This document shows, one piece after another, positions 60,421-64,000 of a DNA stretch of 64,000 nucleotides. Position 1 is the stretch's first letter; every line of letters starts with the position of its first letter. The notes under the pieces are model-generated. The model saw nothing but the letters and a program-made list of their open reading frames with translations. It did no database searches and was not told where the DNA came from. The position numbers and the translations under genes were made by a program. The stretch lies in NCBI GenBank assembly GCA_944389455.1, contig CALXMK010000013.1, positions 1 to 64,000 on the forward strand, written 5' to 3'. The DNA comes from an uncultured Verrucomicrobiota bacterium. GTDB taxonomy: Bacteria > Verrucomicrobiota > Verrucomicrobiia > Limisphaerales > UBA1412.

Positions 60421-62349
60421 TTAAAGTTTAGGCTCGTCCTCCGTCCTCGGAGCCTTTTTTCCAGCCTCTGTTTCAATCGGGGATTCTGAATTCAAAATCA
60501 GATTGCAGACAAAAGCGTGCGGCTCCAGCCGCTTATCTGAAGGAATCGACACATAAGGAACCATCTTTTGGGACATCTCATCTATAGCAATATCCTGAAT
60601 ATCACCTGAATCGATATTCATAAATACATAGGGTCCCTGCCGAATGACCACCTCATTCAGACGATTTGAAACCGTTTTGATTTCTTCATTTGCAGCTACT
60701 TTTATATCTTCTATAGCCACCTTATTAAAACGACGGTCTTCAAAGAAGGGTTCTGAAGTATATACAACCCGATAAACGATTCTCGATTTAGAATTTGAAG
60801 TTCCATTGGGAACCCAAACTGTTTTAATACGACGCCCCTCAACGGAAGAATCTTTTTCCACTAAACTGTCGATTTCATTCTCTTTCTCACCCTCTATACA
60901 TAAAGCCGTCACCTTCAAATCTTGTGCCCAATCCGGTATTCTTAAATGTATCGGCGGGATCCAACCTTTTCGTTCCCCAATAACCCCAATATCCATAACT
61001 ATTTCTGCTGAATTATCCGTATCAACTTTATGCGAGGAAAACTCCCATATATCACGGTCAATATTCACCAGCGCATTAAACGGCATTACGAAGTTATAAT
61101 AGATTCCATCTGATGTTCCTACAGCCAGATAAGAATTCATATCATTCAGAGCCCAAGGTATATGGAAAGAGCAACACCAAAGAGACTCCTGTGAAGGTTT
61201 AAGATACGCATAAGCACCCTTCTGGTCAACTCCCATAAAGCGATGCCCAAATCCTCCGCTGGGCCATTGATTAGGAATAATCCCATTCCAATATAGCCGT
61301 TCTGCCATATCCAGATATTTAGTTTGGCCGGTACATTTCCATAATAGCAAATTCAATCGTAGCCAATCTCCCTCGGTACATCCTTCATCCCGATTATAAC
61401 CACTTACCCAGAGTTTCTCTAAAATACTCCCCGCTGGATTCACATAACCATCCTTCACCAGAAGTTCCCAGCGGGCCAATGCTCGATTCAAATACTTTTC
61501 GTTTCCTGTTGCCTCATACAAACGAACCAACATTCCCGTCTGTCCCACACTCCCATGAGAATGTCCTACAGGTACAACATCAAATTGCTCATGGAAATCG
61601 GCAAATTTCACAGCCGTATCCAAATACTTCTTATCTCCGGTCAATTGATAAAGATTTATCAATCCCTCCATTCCCTCAAACACACACGTCACATAAGCCG
61701 ATGCATATTGCCCCTCCTGTTTATATTCGTCCAGCTTATTTGGATCGCAAAACCGGGGATAAACCGTATTTACATAAAAATCTCCCAGTTTCTTAGCCGA
61801 TTCCAAAGCTTCCGGAAGACTGAATTTCTCTGCTGCCGCAGTCAATCCCAGTAATAATCTACCGTTTCCCCACAATGCGGGCATCATTACTACCTTATCG
61901 GTAGTAGGGTTAAAATCGATTGGCTTACTCCAATCTATGTCCTTACCATAATGTCCATCGGGCTTCTGATATTGAGTAATCTCATTCAGAACGGAAGATA
62001 ACACCTCAGGCCACATCTTATCACGCGTTGAGACCTCTGAAGCAACTTCTATAAAACGCCCTGAAATATCCCCACTAAAATGAGTAAACCAGCGCTCCTG
62101 ATTAAAATTCACATCTGCCAAAATAAAATCTTTATCAAACGGAGGCTGTGTCAAACGATTTAAACCTTGTTCATATATTATCTCAGGAATATCCCACAAC
62201 TGTACAATCCGCACATCGGGAATCTGAGGATTAGTCCACGGTCCATCATTTTTTAAAGAAATTTCAGTGGAGTTCTCCTCCCCACATCCGCAAATCATCA
62301 CACTTGCAGCTGCCGCAAACATCCAACCAAAGGCAACATTTAATTTCAT
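60421..62349 (-). CDS. GH127-like (DUF1680) lipoprotein glycosidase, copy A
   Basis: 642 residues. Lipoprotein signal: the core FGWMFAAAASVMICGC ends in the CGC lipobox (Cys near 22). A six-hairpin catalytic domain follows (MMPALWGNGRLLLGLTAAAE, FYVNTVYPRFCD, EGMEGLINLYQLTGDKKYL). DEGCTEGDW (Glu-x-Cys) and ESLWCCSF (Cys-Cys) correspond to the zinc/nucleophile site of GH127 beta-L-arabinofuranosidases; the acid/base Glu may be the one in ILEKLWVSG. A C-terminal beta region follows (PPIHLRIPDWAQD). It shares a 405-bp near-identical tract with copy B, 115 nt upstream. Substrate is inferred to be an arabinofuranosyl glycan. Confidence 0.8.
   Translation of the reverse strand: MKLNVAFGWMFAAAASVMICGCGEENSTEISLKNDGPWTNPQIPDVRIVQLWDIPEIIYEQGLNRLTQPPFDKDFILADVNFNQERWFTHFSGDISGRFIEVASEVSTRDKMWPEVLSSVLNEITQYQKPDGHYGKDIDWSKPIDFNPTTDKVVMMPALWGNGRLLLGLTAAAEKFSLPEALESAKKLGDFYVNTVYPRFCDPNKLDEYKQEGQYASAYVTCVFEGMEGLINLYQLTGDKKYLDTAVKFADFHEQFDVVPVGHSHGSVGQTGMLVRLYEATGNEKYLNRALARWELLVKDGYVNPAGSILEKLWVSGYNRDEGCTEGDWLRLNLLLWKCTGQTKYLDMAERLYWNGIIPNQWPSGGFGHRFMGVDQKGAYAYLKPSQESLWCCSFHIPWALNDMNSYLAVGTSDGIYYNFVMPFNALVNIDRDIWEFSSHKVDTDNSAEIVMDIGVIGERKGWIPPIHLRIPDWAQDLKVTALCIEGEKENEIDSLVEKDSSVEGRRIKTVWVPNGTSNSKSRIVYRVVYTSEPFFEDRRFNKVAIEDIKVAANEEIKTVSNRLNEVVIRQGPYVFMNIDSGDIQDIAIDEMSQKMVPYVSIPSDKRLEPHAFVCNLILNSESPIETEAGKKAPRTEDEPKL
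61403..61807. repeat. Near-identical 405-bp tract, copy A (matches 63359-63763)
   Basis: Base-by-base reading gives two mismatches in 405 (61735 and 61743). Flanking sequence of the two genes diverges abruptly, e.g. at 61402 and at 61808. The tract encodes the residues from ESAKKLGDFY to EKLWVSG of the GH127 domain. Confidence 0.95.
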
Positions 62350-62377
62350 AACTTATTACACATTCGTTATAACACGG

Positions 62378-62405
62378 ATTATATCCAAAATATTACTTAA
62401 AACAA
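62378..62405 (-). promoter_or_regulatory. Promoter of GH127-like copy A
   Basis: On the minus strand TTGTTT (62400-62405), a 16-nt spacer and TATAAT (62378-62383), in the gap between the two GH127-like genes. The leader would be ~22 nt. Copy A can therefore be transcribed independently of copy B. Confidence 0.6.
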
Positions 62406-62463
62406 GCTATTTTTCTTTTCAGATAAAGTTTTCAAGTCCCTTTTGAATCTGCAATACAGGTTC

Positions 62464-64000
62464 TTATTTTAAAATCAAATTACAAACAAAGGCATGGGGC
62501 TTATATCGAATTTCCTCATCCATCCGATAATAAGGAATCATCTTACTCTCTACTTCTTCCAACCTTATATCATCTATCTCTCCTGAATTGATATTCATAA
62601 GGACAAAAGGTCCATGTCTCAACACCACCTGATCCAATCTCCCCTTTCCTGAAAGCAATACATCCTCCAAGGGGATTCGATTAAAATTCCTATCCTCAAC
62701 CAATAACCCCGTTTTGCATATCATACGATAGACTATTTTATCTTCACTGCGCAAAGTCACTCTATTGGCGGAAAGCGTTTTATACTTCCATCCCTTGCTT
62801 GAGTTATTATCCGAAGTAAAAAATATTTCTTCTGGAATTATTCCTCCTCTTACACAAAGAGCCTTTACTTTTACATCCATTGCCCAATTCGGAATTCTCA
62901 AATGCAGCGGTGGGACTTTTCCTCCCTCTTCACAGCTCAACTCGATATCGAACACAAACTCATCTTTCTCCTCAAATTCTGAACGCCTCGAATTTAATTT
63001 CCAGACCTTTTTGCCTACAGAAAAACTCGTCTCAAATGGCATAGTAAAATTATAATAAATTCCCTTTTCAGCTCCTACTGTCAAATAAGATCGCATCCAA
63101 TTTAATGCCCAAGGCACATGGAAAGAACAACACCAAAACGATTCTGCCAAAGGATCTTGGTAAGAATAAGCTCCCTTCTCATCAACTCCCATATTGCGAT
63201 GTCCGAATCCTCCGCTGGGCCATTGATTAGGAATAATCCCATTCCAAAACAAACGCTCTGCCATATCCAAATATTTAGTCTGTTTTGTACACTTCCATAA
63301 CAGCAAATTCAACCGCAGCCAATCTCCCTCAGTGCATCCCTCATCACAAGTATGCCCGCTTACCCAGAGTTTCTCTAAAATACTCCCCGCTGGATTCACA
63401 TAACCATCCTTCACCAGAAGTTCCCAGCGGGCCAATGCTCGATTCAAATACTTTTCGTTTCCTGTTGCCTCATACAAACGAACCAACATTCCCGTCTGTC
63501 CCACACTCCCATGAGAATGTCCTACAGGTACAACATCAAATTGCTCATGGAAATCGGCAAATTTCACAGCCGTATCCAAATACTTCTTATCTCCGGTCAA
63601 TTGATAAAGATTTATCAATCCCTCCATTCCCTCAAACACACACGTCACATAAGCCGATGCATATTGCCCCTCCTGTTTATATTCGTCCAGTTTATTTGAA
63701 TCGCAAAACCGGGGATAAACCGTATTTACATAAAAATCTCCCAGTTTCTTAGCCGATTCCAAAACTTTCGGATCTCTGAATTTCTCTGCTGCTGCAGTCA
63801 ATCCCAATAATAATCTACCGTTTCCCCACAATGCGGGCATCATTACCACCTGATCTGTAGTGGGATTAAAATCAATTGGCTTGCTCCAATCTATATCCTT
63901 CCCATAATGTCCATCGGGTTTCTGATATTGAGTAATCTCATTCAGAACCGCAGGAAGCGTATCTGGCCAAACTCTTCCTCGAGAGGAAATTTCGGAAGTA
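62464..64000 (-). CDS. GH127-like (DUF1680) glycosidase, copy B, 5' truncated by the window
   Basis: The frame stays open to the window edge; in the last 150 nt (63850-64000) it reads like copy A (SEISSRG.VWPDTLPAVLNE, KPDGHYGKDIDWSKPIDFNP), so the start lies beyond 64000. About 511 residues are visible. The catalytic landmarks DEGCTEGDW and ESFWCCSF are present. The N-terminal half is almost identical to copy A, whereas the C-terminal ~250 residues differ widely (PPLHLRIPNWAMDVKVKALC vs copy A). It is a tandem paralog, and the diverged C-terminal half suggests a different substrate. Confidence 0.82.
   Translation of the reverse strand, partial: TSEISSRGRVWPDTLPAVLNEITQYQKPDGHYGKDIDWSKPIDFNPTTDQVVMMPALWGNGRLLLGLTAAAEKFRDPKVLESAKKLGDFYVNTVYPRFCDSNKLDEYKQEGQYASAYVTCVFEGMEGLINLYQLTGDKKYLDTAVKFADFHEQFDVVPVGHSHGSVGQTGMLVRLYEATGNEKYLNRALARWELLVKDGYVNPAGSILEKLWVSGHTCDEGCTEGDWLRLNLLLWKCTKQTKYLDMAERLFWNGIIPNQWPSGGFGHRNMGVDEKGAYSYQDPLAESFWCCSFHVPWALNWMRSYLTVGAEKGIYYNFTMPFETSFSVGKKVWKLNSRRSEFEEKDEFVFDIELSCEEGGKVPPLHLRIPNWAMDVKVKALCVRGGIIPEEIFFTSDNNSSKGWKYKTLSANRVTLRSEDKIVYRMICKTGLLVEDRNFNRIPLEDVLLSGKGRLDQVVLRHGPFVLMNINSGEIDDIRLEEVESKMIPYYRMDEEIRYKPHAFVCNLILK
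63359..63763. repeat. Near-identical 405-bp tract, copy B (matches 61403-61807)
   Basis: Direct repeat with a constant offset of 1956 bp. The mismatches are at 63691 and 63699. Shorter near-identical patches lie beyond it, for example 63780-63855 against 61824-61899. Confidence 0.95.

Follow-up and report, generated by a model that had tools for sequence, protein, structure and literature searches.

Interlocus gene conversion, the non-reciprocal copying of DNA between paralogs, leaves tracts that average 200–500 bp where they have been measured in yeast and rodents (PMC3924818). In methanogens, the adjacent paralogs mtrA-1 and mtrA-2 have one domain homogenised by conversion and differ in the C-terminal part (PMC4632066). 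The two genes analyzed here, g1 and g2, resemble both systems: they show the signature of non-reciprocal copying between paralogs over a tract of about 400 bp, within the size measured in yeast and rodents, and, as in mtrA-1/mtrA-2, adjacent paralogs carry a homogenised stretch beside a divergent C-terminal part. They differ from the former cases in being bacterial and inferred from sequence alone. In the mtrA genes, fusion replaced the C-terminal part, and almost every species of two orders shows the conversion (PMC4632066); the present case concerns a single genome, in which the C-terminus is a homologous domain of the ordinary, fast-evolving kind.

The window, that is, the whole stretch of 64,000 nucleotides that was analyzed, contains g1 in full and g2 up to its 5' end, which lies outside the window at contig position 64350. 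The genes are of the GH127/DUF1680 type, arranged in tandem on the minus strand with a gap of 114 bp. Their main features are as follows.

60421–62349, minus strand: g1 (paralog 1), ORF of 642 aa, GH127-like (PF07944), predicted to be secreted
62464–64000, continuing to contig position 64350 (L033 2464–4350), minus strand: g2 (paralog 2), ORF of 628 aa, GH127-like
61378–61386, minus strand: codons E322-G-C324 of g1, a short way beyond the main tract, matching in alignment the zinc-binding E338/C340 of HypBA1-type enzymes
61171–61176, minus strand: codons C392-C393 of g1, aligned with the GH127 nucleophile/zinc-binding Cys pair
60421–61119, minus strand: C-terminal domain of g1, 37–46% identical to g2 in amino acids, with saturated synonymous sites

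Both Pfam matches to PF07944 lie above the curated cut-off (g1, E=3e-19, residues 90–394; g2, E=2.1e-17). In HypBA1, a Zn-binding Cys3-Glu site with a Cys nucleophile is formed by E338, C340, C417 and C418 (PMC10728902). Alignment to a solved GH127-type protein, with 6ex6 supplying the partner of the CC pair, places E-x-C and C-C motifs at the equivalent positions of g1, and E322, C324, C392 and C393 are invariant across the genus and are carried by both paralogs in sequence that the tract does not cover. The Zn-binding site and its Cys nucleophile thus appear to be conserved in g1 and g2. With the catalytic-domain match and these zinc-cysteine residues, the pair resembles the beta-L-arabinofuranosidase-type hydrolases of GH127/DUF1680; it is, however, remote from the characterized enzymes (the best solved relative by sequence has E=2e-8), and a beta-L-arabinofuranosidase activity is putative. 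The invariant G21-C22 of g1 suggests a lipoprotein. Downstream of the pair and outside the window, L033 10588–11079 encodes a short RHS-core-like protein (DPETGRWLSPDPIG) beside a small unknown gene.

A preliminary description of this locus had reported a near-identical tract shared by the two genes. Its extent was confirmed at 403 of 405 positions, with an offset of +1956.

61403–61807, minus strand: main conversion tract, g1 copy, about codons 181–315 of 642, within the catalytic domain
63359–63763, minus strand: main conversion tract, g2 copy, 403/405 identical to the g1 copy, dS 0.011

The two mismatches, at 61735 (C/T) and 61743 (G/A), leave exact runs of 332 bp, the longest, and 64 bp. 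When the 509 differences between g1 and g2 were shuffled over the 1839 aligned nucleotides, the longest exact run had a median of 20 and a maximum of 40. Within the 2.62-Mb draft genome, the tract matches at just these two places, with no third match. Its ends, previously called abrupt, are sharp in that mismatches border it exactly at 61402 and 61808, but the flanks fall to 84–90% identity and not straight to unrelated sequence: 84% remains between the paralogs at 61225–61404, and the steep drop, to 57%, is first reached at 61987–62037. The divergence claimed for the C-terminal parts is clear, the C-terminal thirds being 37–46% identical in protein.

The codon alignment of g1 and g2 was divided into segments, and dS was calculated by the Nei-Gojobori method. 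The values were 0.695 for codons 62–121, 0.40 for codons 122–180, 0.011 for the tract (codons 181–315), 0.958 for codons 316–375, 1.855 for codons 376–425 and 2.2–2.3 beyond; a dS of about 2 means that the C-terminal domain is saturated. Synonymous divergence is therefore low inside the tract and high outside it (0.011 versus 0.4–2.3), as predicted in the preliminary description, and is exactly 0 in five consecutive overlapping windows of 40 codons. At fourfold sites, the two genes differ at 0/56 positions in the tract, 8/20 in codons 316–375, 9/17 in codons 411–520 and 10/14 in codons 521–642. The longest run without a synonymous change spans 106 informative codons, a length reached in 0 of 20,000 shuffles (maximum 41); control pairs (n=7) have synonymous-free runs of 5–27, none comparable.

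Strong constraint at the level of protein, RNA or an overlapping antisense frame might hold both copies alike, and the tract does lie within the conserved catalytic domain and is overlapped by antisense ORFs of 105 and 155 codons. Any such constraint would bear on the genus homologues too; yet these share just 61–76% of residues in this stretch, and 29–34 of 38–44 fourfold sites differ between them and g1 or g2, about three quarters or more in the comparison with g1. Because the relatives are synonymously saturated in the same stretch, constraint is not the cause of the identity, and this explanation, including that of an overlapping antisense gene, was rejected as having a negligible probability. 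Since dS is 0.011 inside the tract and high outside it, and the genus homologues are saturated there, gene conversion is the best reading, in support of the recombination between paralogs proposed earlier. We assign a probability of about 0.92 to the conclusion that g1 and g2 are tandem GH127-like paralogs, derived from an old, lineage-specific duplication, that have exchanged DNA by interlocus gene conversion. Between two species of the genus, the dS of the same gene is about 0.16–0.29; compared with this range, the tract would be younger than the species split, if rates are similar.

An assembly artefact, in which reads of both copies were merged into one consensus that was used twice, or in which the flanks were misjoined, is a rival explanation. 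The draft genome comprises 42 contigs, the longest exact run shared by the copies (332 bp) is longer than a short read, and contigs of the relative G005 end within the same gene. The two copies nevertheless keep two mismatches apart inside the tract, and both reading frames are intact. Bubble merging needs sequences within a few percent of each other, as against a dS of 0.4–2 expected for unconverted copies, so that merging would itself presuppose a near-identical tract, and a misjoin would exchange flanks rather than produce identity. Assembly is an unlikely source of the identity, and we consider its probability to be very low. Even if the last few differences had been smoothed away, conversion would hold, because collapse cannot hide tens of percent of synonymous divergence.

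A recent replacement of the stretch in both copies by a third, foreign source is a further rival, since the sequence of the two copies by itself does not reveal whether an incoming homologue was the template. Against it, the genome contains no third copy, the GC (0.43) and GC3 (0.41) of the tract are near the values for the remaining parts of the genes, and the tract has the same grouping in trees as the rest of the genes. Such a source is exceedingly improbable.

Conversion between the two paralogs also offers a reading of the sequence around the main tract, where further similar patches were found in g1.

61808–61992, minus strand: adjoining older or partial tract, about 89% identical to 63764–63948, dS about 0.4
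62096–62168, minus strand: second short near-identical patch (72/73), located where the homologous domain begins, with a partner just past the end of the window
61250–61291, minus strand: candidate third patch, an exact run of 42 nt with its partner at 63206–63247, borderline against shuffles

The patch at 62096–62168 is made up of exact runs of 34 and 38 nt and has fourfold differences of 0/8. Clearly diverged stretches separate the patches, for example 61987–62037 at 57% identity. These weaker and shorter patches near the main tract suggest repeated conversions of differing ages. This layering could come from several events of different age or from a single event with patchy repair after it, and the data fit both.

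The latest event would have transferred a minimum of some 400 bp of the sequence that encodes the catalytic domain, recently enough for just two substitutions to have followed, and earlier or shorter events probably left the nearby 89% and 72/73 patches. The likeliest mechanism is that RecA-type homologous recombination mended a strand that had broken or stalled in one copy, with the neighbouring copy, 1.96 kb away, presumably serving as the template; recA is present in the genome (C1:76466–77530). Recombination would start solely where the copies are similar enough, which would limit it to the conserved catalytic domain, while the 5' leader and the C-terminal domain, 40–57% identical in DNA, would not be open to entry.

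Copying from g1 into g2 is somewhat the likelier direction. In the sequence beyond the tract, the genus homologues are nearer to g1 (distances of 0.30–0.32) than to g2 (0.37–0.43), and the shared tract lies at 0.30 from 2/3 of these homologues; for the third, the value of 0.39 is between both predictions. Because g1 is the nearer relative outside the tract and the tract is g1-like for two of the three homologues, g1 is weakly favoured as the donor. Codon 203 is proline in g1 and all relatives and serine in g2, where it is best read as a change that followed the copying.

Trees of the tract and of the remaining sequence alike pair g1 with g2 as sisters, and the duplication therefore most likely happened in this lineage. 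Their end branches measure 0.24 and 0.79 outside the tract and 0.005 and 0.008 inside it. The copies in genus relatives are non-tandem and in other surroundings: the locus in G001 and G005 reads recA-GH127-glycosyltransferase, and further relatives show other contexts. A search of 196 genomes for two adjacent strong matches (E<=1e-60) found no tandem pair elsewhere in the order. In G005, two contigs (L037 2822–3471 and L038 1–650) terminate within one and the same GH127 gene, sharing a 650-bp overlap that is 97% identical; these contig ends represent strain variation or else a further, nearly identical copy in this genome. G005 also has about 1.35 kb (L038 1392–2737), located between the GH127 gene and the one that follows, that is missing from G001, and a palindrome-like stretch of about 40 bp is repeated at both edges of this segment.

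A candidate second conversion in a sister species was not counted. It involved the copy on C123 of G004 and the recA-locus copy of G001 (L035 1302–3125 against L036 7394–9223). The two copies occupy different loci, and their proteins are 98% identical in the catalytic core and about 40–63% in the C-terminal part. Their fourfold divergence over most of the gene, 0.20–0.23, resembles the 0.14–0.22 of further orthologues from the same species pair, and it is only mildly higher in the C-terminus. The pattern therefore fits fast evolution of the C-terminal protein sequence, and the pair suggests that this domain evolves very fast.

The preliminary description had proposed a single domain common to the paralogs, with separate evolution of the remainder; this holds only in part. 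The tract does lie inside the catalytic domain, but it covers well under half of it (135 of about 305 residues in the PF07944 match) and ends seven codons short of the E-x-C motif (E322, C324), with C392-C393 further on. Moreover, the C-terminus is fast in all homologues, with or without conversion: among the A-type genes (g1, g2 and three genus homologues), its amino acid difference is 0.48–0.69, versus 0.015–0.38 in codons 181–425. Since the C-terminal domain is fast in every homologue compared, its divergence needs no special cause, and the contrast between domains stems largely from differing rates. That conversion stays within the catalytic domain is likewise to be expected, because homologous recombination needs similar sequence. 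A scheme in which the catalytic core is homogenised again and again by conversion as the C-terminal domain diverges fast for new substrates, in a selected arrangement that lastingly combines a shared core with separate specificity parts, is improbable.

The conversion between g1 and g2 is well supported and ordinary, interlocus conversion between tandem paralogs being already well described, and by itself the case raises no new question. It provides a clean example of interlocus gene conversion, with layered patches, in a bacterial draft genome. It also calls for caution with the family, as trees built from the central catalytic region would show g1 and g2 as a very recent duplication.
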